Of a stretch of 61,253 bases of DNA, positions 162 through 5,176 are shown piece after piece. Every line of letters begins with the position of its first letter. The first letter of the stretch is position 1. Source of the stretch: Chloroflexota bacterium (GTDB lineage Bacteria; Chloroflexota; UBA6077; JACCZL01); the NCBI GenBank assembly GCA_020850535.1, contig JADZEM010000090.1:1-61253 (forward strand), in the 5' to 3' direction. A model generated the notes under the pieces. It saw only the letters and a program-made list of their open reading frames with translations. It made no database searches and was not told where the DNA came from. A program made the position numbers and the translations under genes.

Positions 162-2141
162 TCAGGCCACCGGGCGACGCCAGAGCGTGCCGCCAAGGCC
201 CAGCGCGTAGGCCACCAGTTCCCCGCTCGGGAGCGCGAGCACGCGCAACCCCGTCACCAGCGGCGTCCGGATGCCCGCGTCCCACGCCTCGAACGTCTCG
301 CCGCCGTCCCGCGAAAGGTATGGCGTGCCGGTCGCGGCTGCCAGCACCAGACGGTCGCGGCGCGCCGACGGCGACAGCGCGAGGCTCGTGACCGTCTCCG
401 ACGGCGCACCGATGCGAGCCTCCTGCCAGAGCGGACGCGTCTCGCCGCGCCGTCGCTCGGCGCTCTGCGACAGCGGCCGGCCGACGTGCCCGGGTCGTCC
501 GGCCAGCACCGCGTACGGCCCGTGGCCCGGCGCCGGCACGGCGATGGGCATCACGGCGGCCCGCGGTCCCGGCCACCAGCGCGCCCAGGTCCGCCCCCGA
601 TTCGCCGAGCGCCAGAGATCGACGCCGGCCAGGACTCGCGAGCCGTCGGCCTCGGTCAGGTAGTCGCGGACGCCGACGTAGAGCGTGCCGTCCTGACCGA
701 ACGCGGGCGACGGCGCAACCGACACGATCTCCGCCCCGGCGAACGGCAGCGGGAGCGCCTTCCAGCGCTCGCCGGCGTCCTCCGAGAGCAGCAGACAGCC
801 GACGCCGGCCGCAACCAGCGTCGTCGGCGCACTGCTGAGGTCGCCGACGGCTGCCAGCGCGGTCGGCCGGGCGTCGGCCGGCAGCTCCACGGCAGCCAGA
901 TCGACGCGCTGCCAGCCGGCCTCGATCCGGTCGCTCCAGTACAGCCCGTCCTCGAAGGTTGCCAGCACGGCCGGACGTCCGCCGGCCCGCCGCACGAACG
1001 CCAGAGACGTGGCCGCCAGCGCCGTCAGGCCGCCGGCGCCGCCCTTCCAGGTTCGCCCGGCATCGTGGGAGACCACGACGCCAGCGTCGAGCATCGCCAC
1101 GCCCAGCAGCGGCTCGTCGCCGAACGCCATCGTGGCGTCCAGGGCCACCGTCGCGCGGCCAGCCAGCCCGACGTTGGCAGGCGTCCAGCGACCACCGCCC
1201 GAGTCGAGACGCACCGCCCCCTGATCGACCGTACCGGCCACGGCTGCGCCACCTGTGGTCGACACGAGGCCGAGGATCGGGCCGAGGTCCGCGCCGTCGA
1301 GCGTCCAGGTTGCGCCGCCGTCCGTCGAGCGCGCCACGCCCGCCGCCGTCCCGACCAGGATCGTCCGTCCGTCCGTCCCAAACGCGATGCTGGTCACGGA
1401 CGGCTCGGGAAAGCTGTCTACCGCGTCCCAGGTCTGGCCGCCATCGTCGGAGCGGAACAGCCCGTCAGCCTCGGTGCCGGCCAGCACGAGCGCGTCGTCC
1501 TCGAAGGCTGGCGAGACCCCGATGGCCTGCACGGCTGGTGCATCCGGTCCCAACTCGACCAGCCGCCACGCCCGCGCGCCGTTCCGCGAGCGAAACAGGC
1601 CGCTGATCGTGCCGGCAAACGCCGTCCGATCCCGCCCGAACGCGGGCGAGAGAGCGACCGCCAACACGGTCAGGTCGAGCAGGCCGGCGTTCGCGCCGAT
1701 CCAGCTCAGGCCGCCGTCCTCCGAGCGCAGGAGGCCGTCTGTCTCGGTGCCGGCCAGCACGGTCACGTCGGCAGCCGACGGATCGGCGGTCACGGCGAGA
1801 GCCTGCACCTTGCTGCCCGTCAGCACCTGCCGCCAGGACCGGCCGCCGTCCGTCGAACGGTGCAGGCCGCTTCCCGCCCCCAGCAGGAGCGACGTGCCCA
1901 TAGCGTCAGCCGGAAGGCACGCCAGCGCGTCGGCAATGGTGTCAGGGGCCAGCGACAGCCACGCCCAGGTCTGGCCGCCGTCCTCGGAGCCGTGCAGGCC
2001 GGCCGGCGTCGCGGCATAGATCCGCTGGCCGCCCCCCACGACGCCCGACGCCAGTGCCAGCACGGTTCCGCCGGACCACTCGGTCACCAGCTCCCACGGA
2101 CGGGCGTTCGTCGGGTCACTCCCGCTGTCAGAGGCGGCCAC
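162..2141 (-). CDS. Cytosolic Asp-box (BNR) beta-propeller protein
   Basis: The 659-residue product consists almost wholly of Asp-box repeats (S/T-x-D-x-G-x-x-W). About eleven are readable, including SEDGGQTW, STDGGRSW, SEDGGLSW, SDDGGQTW, STDGGATW, SHDAGRTW, SEDAGERW and SRDGGETF. Such repeats form the beta-propellers of sialidases and of VPS10/sortilin and Ycf48-type proteins. No catalytic sialidase Arg triad is evident. There is no signal peptide or membrane segment, so the protein is probably cytosolic and binding rather than catalytic. Its ATG lies inside the 3' end of the upstream GroEL-like gene (14-bp overlap), which implies translational coupling and a shared role. The substrate or partner is unknown. 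The fold is well supported; the function is not. Confidence 0.85.
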   Translation of the reverse strand: MAASDSGSDPTNARPWELVTEWSGGTVLALASGVVGGGQRIYAATPAGLHGSEDGGQTWAWLSLAPDTIADALACLPADAMGTSLLLGAGSGLHRSTDGGRSWRQVLTGSKVQALAVTADPSAADVTVLAGTETDGLLRSEDGGLSWIGANAGLLDLTVLAVALSPAFGRDRTAFAGTISGLFRSRNGARAWRLVELGPDAPAVQAIGVSPAFEDDALVLAGTEADGLFRSDDGGQTWDAVDSFPEPSVTSIAFGTDGRTILVGTAAGVARSTDGGATWTLDGADLGPILGLVSTTGGAAVAGTVDQGAVRLDSGGGRWTPANVGLAGRATVALDATMAFGDEPLLGVAMLDAGVVVSHDAGRTWKGGAGGLTALAATSLAFVRRAGGRPAVLATFEDGLYWSDRIEAGWQRVDLAAVELPADARPTALAAVGDLSSAPTTLVAAGVGCLLLSEDAGERWKALPLPFAGAEIVSVAPSPAFGQDGTLYVGVRDYLTEADGSRVLAGVDLWRSANRGRTWARWWPGPRAAVMPIAVPAPGHGPYAVLAGRPGHVGRPLSQSAERRRGETRPLWQEARIGAPSETVTSLALSPSARRDRLVLAAATGTPYLSRDGGETFEAWDAGIRTPLVTGLRVLALPSGELVAYALGLGGTLWRRPVA

Positions 2142-3804
2142 GCCACTCCCTCCGTATCCGCCGCAGCGGGTCTTTCCGTCGAATGACCACCTCAGCGGTC
2201 AGGGCGGTCGCCGCCGTGCTGACGGCGGCTTCCAGGGCCGTCCGCGTCACCCCGAGCGGATCGACCAGCCCGGCCGCACGCGCGTCGACCCACGCCCCGC
2301 TCAGCACGTCGTAGGCCGCCCGCTCAGGCCGCTGCCCGCCTCCCGCCACGATGGCCCGGCCGTCGAGGCCGGCGTTCCGGGCGATGACCTCGGCCGGCGC
2401 GGCCAGCGCCCGCGCCAGCAGCCGCAGGCCCGCCGCATAGTCGTCGCGTCCCGGCTGCCCGTCCAGCGCCCGGGCAGCCGTCAGCAGCGCGCCGCCGCCG
2501 CCGGCCACGACCCCGGATTCCAGCGCTGCCCGACAACTGGTCACCGCCGCCTCGACGCGCTGCTTCAACAGCTCCTGCGCCCGTTTCGTCGGGCCGCCGA
2601 CCTGGATGCTCGCGCCAGTTCCCGTGAGCTTGGCGATGCGCTCTCGGAGCTTGCTCCTGAGGTACGGATCGTCGCGGTGGGCTGTCAGCTCGCCGCGCAC
2701 GTCGGTGACGCGCTTACGGATCGCCGCGCGGTCGCCCCGCCCCCCGATGACGCCGAACGCCTGCCGCGTGGCCCAGACCTGCCGCGCCTGCCCCAGATCG
2801 GCCAGCGTCACCCGCTCCAGGCGATCCCCCAGCTCGCGGTGCAGGCACCGCCCGCCCGTCGCCGCCGCCAGATCGTCGAGGATGCCGATGCGCTGCGCTC
2901 CGATGCTCGGCGCCTGGATCGCCAGCGCGCCGGCCAGCGTGCCGCGCTCGCGGTTCGCCAGCAGCATCGCCACGACGGCATGGTGCACGTCCGGGGCGAT
3001 GATGACCAGCCGCGGCACATCCGCTGCCACGCACGCCTCGAGCGCAGGCAGCAGCTGCTCGGGCCGCTCGACGTTGAAATCACAGAGGAGGATGCGCGGC
3101 TCGACGAGGCGGCCGGTCGTCTCGCCGGGCGGCAGCAGGTGAGCCGAGCTGTACCCGCCCTCCCAGCGCACGCCATCCACGTACTGGTGGAGGGTCTCGG
3201 CGCCGTGGGCGTTCTCGACCATGACGATGCCGTCCGGCCCGACGGTATCGAGGATCTCGCCGACGATCTCGGCCAGCGCGGGGTCGTCCAGGGTGTGCCG
3301 TGCCACCCGCGCGATCTCGTCCGGGTGGTCGAGCTTCCAGGCGCTCATCTCCAGCGCGTCGAGCACGGTCCGCAGGCCATCGCGCAGGCCCGCGCAGAGC
3401 CCCACTGGCTCGACGCCGCCGGCCAGCAGGCGCGCGCCATCGTGGAGGAGCGCACGGGTGAGCACCGCCGTCGTCGCGCCGCCGTCCCCAACCTCGTCGG
3501 CAACACGCAGCACGAGATCGCGCAGCATCATCGCGCCGGCGTTTTCGAACGGATCGGCCAGCTCGATGGTCCGCCGCGCGATAGTGGCGGCGGTATCGAG
3601 GATCTCCGGCGGCTCCTGGCCGAGGATCGGGGCGATGGCGACGGTCCGCGCCACCGGCCCGAGGGTCGGGGCGATCAGCCCGGCCAGTTGGTCTGCGCCC
3701 CGCAACAACGCTGAACGAGCCGCCAACCCGTAGCGGATTGGCGACTCGGGATCAGTGGCCTCGTCATCGCTGACTGGCGTCTGCTTCGTGTCGATTGGCG
3801 TCAC
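2128..3804 (-). CDS. Divergent GroEL-like chaperonin paralog, probably ATPase-deficient
   Basis: The 558-residue product aligns with Hsp60/GroEL over its whole length. It has TLGP (47-50), FENAGAMM (86-93), GDGGATT (106-112, against GDGTTT), an apical domain from about 195 to 375 and VVAGGGG (432-438, against VVAGGG). The position equivalent to E. coli Asp398 (KARVED-A-LHATRAA) is Ala419 here (KQRVEAAV). The D398A change in GroEL is known to block ATP hydrolysis. The apical groove Y-x-x-x-YF becomes GYSSAHL, and the Gly-Gly-Met tail is replaced by an Arg-rich end. This is therefore unlikely to be the housekeeping GroEL, and no groES is adjacent. The gene overlaps the Asp-box propeller gene by 14 bp, suggesting a dedicated scaffold or holdase for that partner. 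The family call is firm; the role is inferred. Confidence 0.88.
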   Translation of the reverse strand: MTPIDTKQTPVSDDEATDPESPIRYGLAARSALLRGADQLAGLIAPTLGPVARTVAIAPILGQEPPEILDTAATIARRTIELADPFENAGAMMLRDLVLRVADEVGDGGATTAVLTRALLHDGARLLAGGVEPVGLCAGLRDGLRTVLDALEMSAWKLDHPDEIARVARHTLDDPALAEIVGEILDTVGPDGIVMVENAHGAETLHQYVDGVRWEGGYSSAHLLPPGETTGRLVEPRILLCDFNVERPEQLLPALEACVAADVPRLVIIAPDVHHAVVAMLLANRERGTLAGALAIQAPSIGAQRIGILDDLAAATGGRCLHRELGDRLERVTLADLGQARQVWATRQAFGVIGGRGDRAAIRKRVTDVRGELTAHRDDPYLRSKLRERIAKLTGTGASIQVGGPTKRAQELLKQRVEAAVTSCRAALESGVVAGGGGALLTAARALDGQPGRDDYAAGLRLLARALAAPAEVIARNAGLDGRAIVAGGGQRPERAAYDVLSGAWVDARAAGLVDPLGVTRTALEAAVSTAATALTAEVVIRRKDPLRRIRREWRGRL

Positions 3805-3874
3805 CCCTGCGTGGACGGTCTATTGTGACACGCAGGGAGACGCCTCGGTCAGCAAATCCTCCAGGCAGCAGGCG

Positions 3875-5041
3875 CTAGCTGTAGACGGCGTGCCCGACCT
3901 GGTGCTTCTTGATGTAGTCCCAGTCGAGCTGCACCCCAAGGCCCGGGCCGGTCGGCACCGAGACGTGGCCGTTCTTGTCGATGGCGTCCAGCTCGTCGGA
4001 GTAGCCGCAGGCGTAGATCGGCGGCTTGGTCCGCTTCAGCTTCGGGTGGACCAGCCCGAGCTCGTAGTAGTTGGTGTTGCGGATCGCCGCCATGCAGTGC
4101 CGGTGGTGCGGCCCGGGGGCGTGGACCTCGACGTCCAGGCCGAAGCCCTCCGCCGAGTGCGCGATCTTCATCAGGCCGGTGATGCCAGCATCGTAGTCGG
4201 CGTCGGCGCGGACGTAGTCGGTGCCGTCCGCCACGATGTTGTCGACGTGCAGCTCGTGGCCCCGGATGTGCTCGCCGATCAGGATCGGAGTCTTGATGAT
4301 CTGCCGCAGCTTGCGGTGCCCGAACGCCGAGATGCCGCCGTCCTTGTACGGGTCTTCCAGCCAGAAGAAGCGGGCCTCGTCGCAGGCCAGCCCGACCTTC
4401 ACGGTCTCGCCCCAGGTGTTGTACTCGCAGGCCGGGTCGATCATCAGATCCATCTCGTCGCCCACGGCCTTGCGGGTCGCCAGGACGGTCTGGACTTCTC
4501 GCTGGATCGGCCCGGTGCCCCAGCCGTGGATCTTGAAGGCCGGGTAGCCCATCTCCTTGCACTGCACTGCGAACTCGGCGAACTGCTCGGGCGTCGTCAG
4601 GCCGCCGTTCTCGTCGCCGTGGTAGGTGGAGGCGTAGGCCGGCAGGGTCTTGCGGAACCCGCCCAGCAGCTCGGAGATCGGCGCGTCGTAGAGCTTGCCG
4701 GCGATGTCCCACAGCGCGATGTCAATCGACCCGATGCCCATGCGGTCGTCCTTCCGCATGGCCCGCTTCAGATCGTTGTAGATCTTCTCGCGCTCGAGGG
4801 CGTTCTTGCCGATCAGGTAGCCGGCCACCCGCCCGACCTGGGCGTAGGTGGACGACATGCCGCCGGCGTACTCGCCGCTGACCCCGGCGTCGGTGTCGAT
4901 CTTGATGACGTAGCCGGTGTTGTGGGCCGTGCTTCCAGCTTCCCAGACGCCGTTGAAGCCATTGTAGTCGGTGCCCATGTCCTGCACGTCGTAGGCGTAC
5001 TGGAACACCTCGACACGGGTGATCTTCGGTTGACGAGCCAT
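3875..5041 (-). CDS. Mandelate racemase / muconate lactonizing enzyme family (enolase superfamily) dehydratase
   Basis: The 388-residue product has the capping domain and TIM barrel of the enolase superfamily. Visible active-site elements are K170-I-H172 on strand 2, metal ligands Asp202 (MIDPA), Glu229 (WLEDP) and Glu257 (GEH), and a likely general base at His307 (EVHAPGPHH). The pattern fits an acid-sugar dehydratase or racemase of the mandelate racemase group; the exact substrate cannot be read. The start at 5041 is chosen because GGGGAGGAGCGAGG precedes this ATG and homology begins at MARQPKITRVEV. A longer open frame upstream has no support. It is the last gene of the minus-strand block, 70 bp beyond the chaperonin start. 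Confidence 0.9.
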   Translation of the reverse strand: MARQPKITRVEVFQYAYDVQDMGTDYNGFNGVWEAGSTAHNTGYVIKIDTDAGVSGEYAGGMSSTYAQVGRVAGYLIGKNALEREKIYNDLKRAMRKDDRMGIGSIDIALWDIAGKLYDAPISELLGGFRKTLPAYASTYHGDENGGLTTPEQFAEFAVQCKEMGYPAFKIHGWGTGPIQREVQTVLATRKAVGDEMDLMIDPACEYNTWGETVKVGLACDEARFFWLEDPYKDGGISAFGHRKLRQIIKTPILIGEHIRGHELHVDNIVADGTDYVRADADYDAGITGLMKIAHSAEGFGLDVEVHAPGPHHRHCMAAIRNTNYYELGLVHPKLKRTKPPIYACGYSDELDAIDKNGHVSVPTGPGLGVQLDWDYIKKHQVGHAVYS

Positions 5042-5176
5042 CCTCGCTCCTCCCCGTCGCTCTGACCGAGTTGTGCCAACGTTGGCGCGGGGAGAGGGTA
5101 GCCGGTCCGGCCCCCAGCCGGTCCACCTTTGCGGCCTCAGCGGCCCGCCGGGTACCGAGACGCGCCGACAACCCTG

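Follow-up and report, generated by a model that had tools for sequence, protein, structure and literature searches.

A divergent GroEL-like chaperonin gene precedes a tandem Asp-box propeller gene across families of Chloroflexota

Asp-box propellers are known mostly from glycosidases and receptors. As far as the available parts of the cited reports go, the closest described systems on the chaperonin side are the engineered GroEL variant D398A, which keeps ATP binding and 3% of wild-type ATPase activity and remains able to encapsulate and fold proteins (PMC3326522), the chaperonin-like proteins BBS6, BBS10 and BBS12, which have degenerate ATPase motifs and help stabilise BBS7 (PMC5534436), and CCT, which binds 7-bladed WD40 propellers (PMC8544692). 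The chlamydial proteins GroEL2 and GroEL3 are bacterial GroEL paralogues described, in the accessible portion of the source, as diverged in their ATP-binding and hydrolysis regions (PMC1892554), and a Dehalococcoides 'BNR/Asp-box repeat domain protein' is labelled S-layer in the available text of PMC6646388. Here we analyse a Chloroflexota locus in which a divergent GroEL-like chaperonin gene is followed by an Asp-box propeller gene. No earlier description of such a pair was found in the open-licence literature searched, in agreement with the preliminary description, whose author knew of no described complex of this kind; the name 'two-component system' used there was dropped, since this term has another meaning in bacteria.

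The window, meaning the whole stretch of 61,253 nt that was analysed, is an entire contig, whose end lies 161 nt past the propeller stop codon. Both open reading frames were recovered where the preliminary description had placed them, with the propeller start inside the 3' end of the chaperonin gene (Table 1).

Table 1. Features of the chaperonin-propeller locus in the window
Feature	Position	Strand	Details
Divergent GroEL-like chaperonin gene	2128..3804	minus	558 aa; GTG start; PF00118; GroEL fold in AlphaFold2 model
Tandem Asp-box propeller gene, predicted cytosolic	162..2141	minus	659 aa; GTG start; PF02012 and PF15902
Overlap of the chaperonin and propeller reading frames	2128..2141	minus	14 nt
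GGAGGGAG, likely propeller ribosome-binding site	2146..2153	minus	within the chaperonin ORF

The propeller starts with a GTG at 2141-2139, before the end of the chaperonin frame, whose stop codon is at 2130-2128. Translational coupling of the two genes is plausible in the window because GGAGGGAG (2153-2146) stands 4 nt 5' of the propeller GTG, within the 3' end of the chaperonin frame. The coupling proposed in the preliminary description is thereby plausible for the window, with its overlap and likely ribosome-binding site, but a tight overlap is not general, as start spacing in the pairs described below ranges from -14 to ~200 nt. Frame length alone is little proof of either gene, because the DNA is GC-rich and the opposite strand also holds a 566-aa open frame; homology backs both, as PF00118 matches the chaperonin at 5e-42 and the propeller is matched by PF02012 and PF15902, and a chance overlap in GC-rich DNA was ruled out by conserved homologues and gene order. 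Immediately 5' of the chaperonin GTG is a perfect 9-nt inverted repeat with a 15-nt spacer (3805-3837), which may be chance, and an enolase-superfamily gene on the same strand (3875-5050; PF13378, PF02746) ends ~70 nt upstream of the chaperonin. The enolase-superfamily gene was absent beside the other pairs whose neighbours were examined.

The window chaperonin falls in the Cpn60/TCP-1 superfamily, with a PF00118 score of 144.6 bits against a gathering score of 34.3. It fails the GroEL equivalog model TIGR02348 (369.7 bits; cut-off 582.1), passes the broader NF009487 (406.7 bits; cut-off 352) and is ~33-35% identical to canonical GroEL, and its AlphaFold2 monomer model has a GroEL fold (pLDDT 86.2) that matches Thermus Cpn60 with a Z of 44.8 and an rmsd of 5.1 over 521 residues. 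The same genome encodes ordinary GroELs, on contig C166 and as fragments on C227 and C199, along with two more divergent chaperonins (C122 and C143) that are 50% and 49% identical to that of the window. PE[IV]LD and ATIAR-type residues are common to the divergent copies at the place where ordinary GroELs from the same genomes show T[IV]T[NH]DGVT[IV]A[KR]; the divergent copies are also without the Gly-Met tail. When 67 sequences were aligned, the divergent family and the intermediates L102, L103 and that of f33 (L179) split from canonical-motif chaperonins in 60/60 bootstraps. Judged by sequence, the window chaperonin is a member of a distinct Chloroflexota GroEL paralogue family that coexists with ordinary GroELs. 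Apical groove positions are mostly hydrophobic. Support for the window's own clade was 12/60 bootstraps without G394 and 58/60 with it; L005, L006 and L007 are absent from the first tree and, together with L035, from the second, and the chaperonin of L105, which reads as pieces in different frames, was excluded from chaperonin trees and alignments while its propeller was kept. Longer chaperonin frames were also seen: L277 (G258:C62:2000-16000) and L278 (G209:C13:43000-56000) are single frames of 1120 and 1135 aa with two tandem chaperonin domains each, in f36 genomes that also hold several other chaperonins, and in the 1083-aa frame L279 (G049:C1:766000-774000) the chaperonin domain is confined to the second half (residues 524-1056).

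D52, D87 and D398 are the catalytic aspartates of GroEL, and D52 and D398 are the textbook positions of ATPase mutants; residue positions are those of E. coli GroEL, assigned by motif. The window chaperonin has T, D and A at the equivalents of D52, D87 and D398. All three aspartates are kept in 19/19 canonical GroELs and 7/7 basal family relatives, and the 26 family members without D398 carry E (9), A (7), R (4), S (3), Q (2) or G (1) in its stead; D52 is also gone in 10 of these 26, and D87 in 8 (N in 7, E in 1). A single loss of D398 has a local support of 0.986 in one tree, but 21/60 bootstraps in another. Pairing is independent of aspartate loss, because the propeller-paired chaperonins of G020, G022 and G026 have an intact triad. 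The term 'probably ATPase-dead' in the preliminary description accordingly suits the window's clade, where the D52 and D398 equivalents are lost, but not these three paired members, and as a family-wide trait it was ruled out by the basal members, which keep the triad.

Its repeats and a PF02012 score of 56.2 bits (cut-off 27) identify the second protein as an Asp-box beta-propeller, and the Pfam cut-offs of Sortilin-Vps10 and PSII_BNR are passed as well. Of the eleven Asp-boxes originally counted, ten match the pattern and the eleventh is a degenerate copy near residue 403, recognised by eye only. About 14 blades can be read from the strand list of the AlphaFold2 model (pLDDT 87.4, pTM 0.86); residues ~23-320 match 7-bladed propellers (Z ~30, rmsd 2.5), and the full chain matches the tandem 7-bladed GH74 enzymes (6p2m: Z 29.9, rmsd 6.0, 574 residues). 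The predicted arrangement, two propellers of seven blades each, is GH74-like. GH74 enzymes have two catalytic aspartates, of which the base would occupy the position after the 'AT/GT' of blade 1; placed by motif only, this residue is not Asp in 16/16 propeller relatives. These relatives align throughout the sequence, although contig ends or stops shorten two of them. The propeller also scores below the cut-offs of the F510_1955 family glycosylhydrolase (NF045728; 149.8 vs 175 bits) and of Ycf48 (PRK13684; 38 vs 326 bits). In line with the cytosolic location first suggested, no signal peptide is apparent in a Kyte-Doolittle hydrophobicity scan, which is not a signal-peptide predictor: the top 15-residue mean near the N-terminus is 1.33 in the window propeller and at most ~1.6 in orthologues, except for L066 (2.06, start uncertain). 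Apart from that exception, the scan led us to set aside a secreted enzyme; a defence role was set aside because neither the chaperonin nor the propeller matched any family (0) among the PADLOC-DB anti-phage models at E<=0.01.

The pair was then sought in a phylum sample of 400 Chloroflexota genomes, with three candidates scored per genome. The propeller was found in 57/400 genomes (E<=1e-90) and the chaperonin family in at least 28/400 (E<=1e-183), a lower bound because truncated chaperonins and the paired ones of G149, G381 and G394 fall outside this cut. Of the 57 propeller genomes, 21 from nine families have a chaperonin gene immediately 5' of the propeller on the same strand (G000, G003, G008, G009, G013, G020, G022, G026, G149, G153, G181, G202, G230, G244, G251, G272, G293, G321, G328, G381 and G394), a count that may be too low because some unpaired propellers (G028, G265 and the second copy of G188) are close to contig ends. 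In three of the 21 (G013, G153, G181) the chaperonin is only a remnant at a contig end. Four further paired loci come from MAGs (L104, L105, L106 (Thermomicrobiales) and L108 (Chloroflexia)), and near relatives of the window show the adjacency too. What the preliminary description saw in one contig is thus kept far beyond close relatives, with the chaperonin gene first in every case.

Both genes are present in 26/28 chaperonin-family genomes, compared with a propeller in 57/400 overall (Fisher p 8e-23); the figure is 21/23 without f33, which has the intermediate-type member, and 17/19 by genus (p 1e-16), and these p values overstate independence because the genomes are related. Across 20 pairs, chaperonin and propeller distances correlate with a rho of 0.906, with 0/2000 permutations as high, a result that common descent alone would also give. 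Both genes are under purifying selection in the four pairs tested, with dN/dS of ~0.03-0.15; one pair is saturated at silent sites. Joint retention, fixed order and purifying selection support a functional link between chaperonin and propeller.

Our tentative reading, to which we give a little under an even chance, is that the chaperonin is dedicated to the propeller, which would be its main client or partner. The window chaperonin would still form a ring and bind ATP, because the fold and the D87 equivalent are kept; its mostly hydrophobic apical groove would grip the new propeller chain, and the chaperonin would support blade closure or hold the propeller during assembly. Members of the window's clade would bind ATP with little or no hydrolysis, as slow holders or scaffolds rather than cycling foldases, and would work without a groES of their own. 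In the phylum sample, 31/57 propeller genomes lack the chaperonin family, against 2/28 chaperonin-family genomes that lack the propeller, an asymmetry that fits a client with a dedicated chaperone better than a ring with an obligate cap. This argument is weakened by chaperonin-bearing genomes in which no propeller was matched over its full length at E<=1e-90, namely G041 (57% complete), G051 (81% complete) and those of L102, L103, L107, L109 and L111, with L102 and L103 seemingly identical to the G041 and G051 contigs. No chaperonin is adjacent in 36/57 propeller genomes, and the propeller does not always need one, because seven propeller genomes of f3, f24 and f36 gave no family chaperonin in a looser search (for G037, two chaperonins were inspected in the alignment). 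At 67 kDa the propeller may also exceed the size limit of a capped GroEL-type cage, which counts against it as a client.

The distribution of groES bears on another possibility, that the propeller is a permanent subunit of a stable machine, a cap or adaptor that replaces GroES or brings substrates to a non-hydrolysing ring. The two groES genes of the window genome (C166 and C227) adjoin ordinary groELs, and none was found beside the window chaperonin in the window stretch scanned; groES is present in 13/14 genomes holding the pair. Among 41 fetched loci scanned, groES adjoins a family chaperonin only in f33 (5/5 genomes examined), and at L188, where it lies ~1.7 kb from the paired chaperonin, it is beside an ordinary groEL. 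Such a machine would suit paired chaperonins that have no groES beside them and an intermediate relative that has one upstream. It would also suit the equivalent of V264, a GroES-contact position, which is V in 19/19 canonical GroELs, but in 5/26 D398-less and 0/7 basal family members. We still consider it unlikely, as propellers without a chaperonin are common, contrary to what one would expect of a dedicated cap, and triad-intact chaperonins are paired as well. The chaperonin family may have descended from a groES-linked GroEL. A fuller proposal, in which a groES-free ring with ATP binding but no hydrolysis stays in a lasting complex with the 14-blade propeller, as a scaffold or nucleotide-sensing carrier derived from a groES-linked GroEL whose groES neighbour was swapped for the propeller, appears distinctly unlikely. 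At the f33 loci L179, L243, L244, L245 and L246, the sole groES found per genome is just upstream of the intermediate chaperonin, which reads EIMNDGATIAR and has an intact triad in L179; G132, also of f33, has two other chaperonins without a groES neighbour.

Adjacency and co-occurrence cannot separate contact between the proteins from a shared need, and the two genes might be co-transcribed for the same process while their products never bind. The unlinked chaperonins and propellers of f11 (4 genomes) and f33 would agree with this, and the window genome itself holds a second, unlinked propeller (C127) and two unlinked family chaperonins. We nevertheless hold a shared pathway without contact to be improbable, since the neighbouring genes differ among lineages and suggest no common pathway, and only the chaperonin and propeller stay together. 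At the f11 locus L077, HPPK and dihydropteroate-synthase-type genes come before the propeller and a VanW-like gene after it (Pfam), with no family chaperonin nearby, and L078 has a similar layout, away from family chaperonins. An ordinary extra GroEL with a broad range of clients that happens to precede a propeller gene is very unlikely, for although groEL duplication in nearly 30% of bacterial genomes (available part of PMC3578752), the intact fold and the triad of basal members would agree with it, the same propeller partner recurs in nine families, the window's clade has lost the D52 and D398 equivalents, and the Gly-Met tail is absent.

What chaperonins do when they no longer hydrolyse ATP, and whether a group I chaperonin can specialise on a single partner, has been learnt mostly from mutants made in the laboratory and from relatives in eukaryotes. 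Both questions could be tested with these natural pairs, because the bacterial family has triad-intact and triad-lost members, many of them beside the same partner, and a role for a cytosolic Asp-box propeller would follow. BBS7 presumably contains a propeller itself. The likeness to BBS6, BBS10 and BBS12, as the available part of PMC5534436 presents them, lies in chaperonin relatives with altered ATPase motifs and one particular client; these are group II relatives from eukaryotes and act together with CCT, whereas the window chaperonin is of group I. CCT/TRiC likewise has propellers among its clients (PMC8544692, in the portion available), but is a group II chaperonin with many clients, an active ATPase and WD40 rather than Asp-box propellers. 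The chlamydial GroEL2 and GroEL3 are set apart by NCBIfam cut-offs that the window chaperonin falls far under (139 and 92 vs 600 bits), and the accessible text of PMC1892554 mentions no propeller partner for them. GH74 xyloglucanases share the tandem 7-bladed layout (6p2m) with the window propeller, which differs in having no apparent signal peptide and, as in all 16 relatives, no Asp after the blade-1 'AT/GT'. Canonical GroEL and its D398A mutant have the fold of the window chaperonin, which is naturally without the D398 equivalent; unlike D398A, it is also missing the D52 equivalent, has no Gly-Met tail and no groES next to it, and is followed by a propeller gene.
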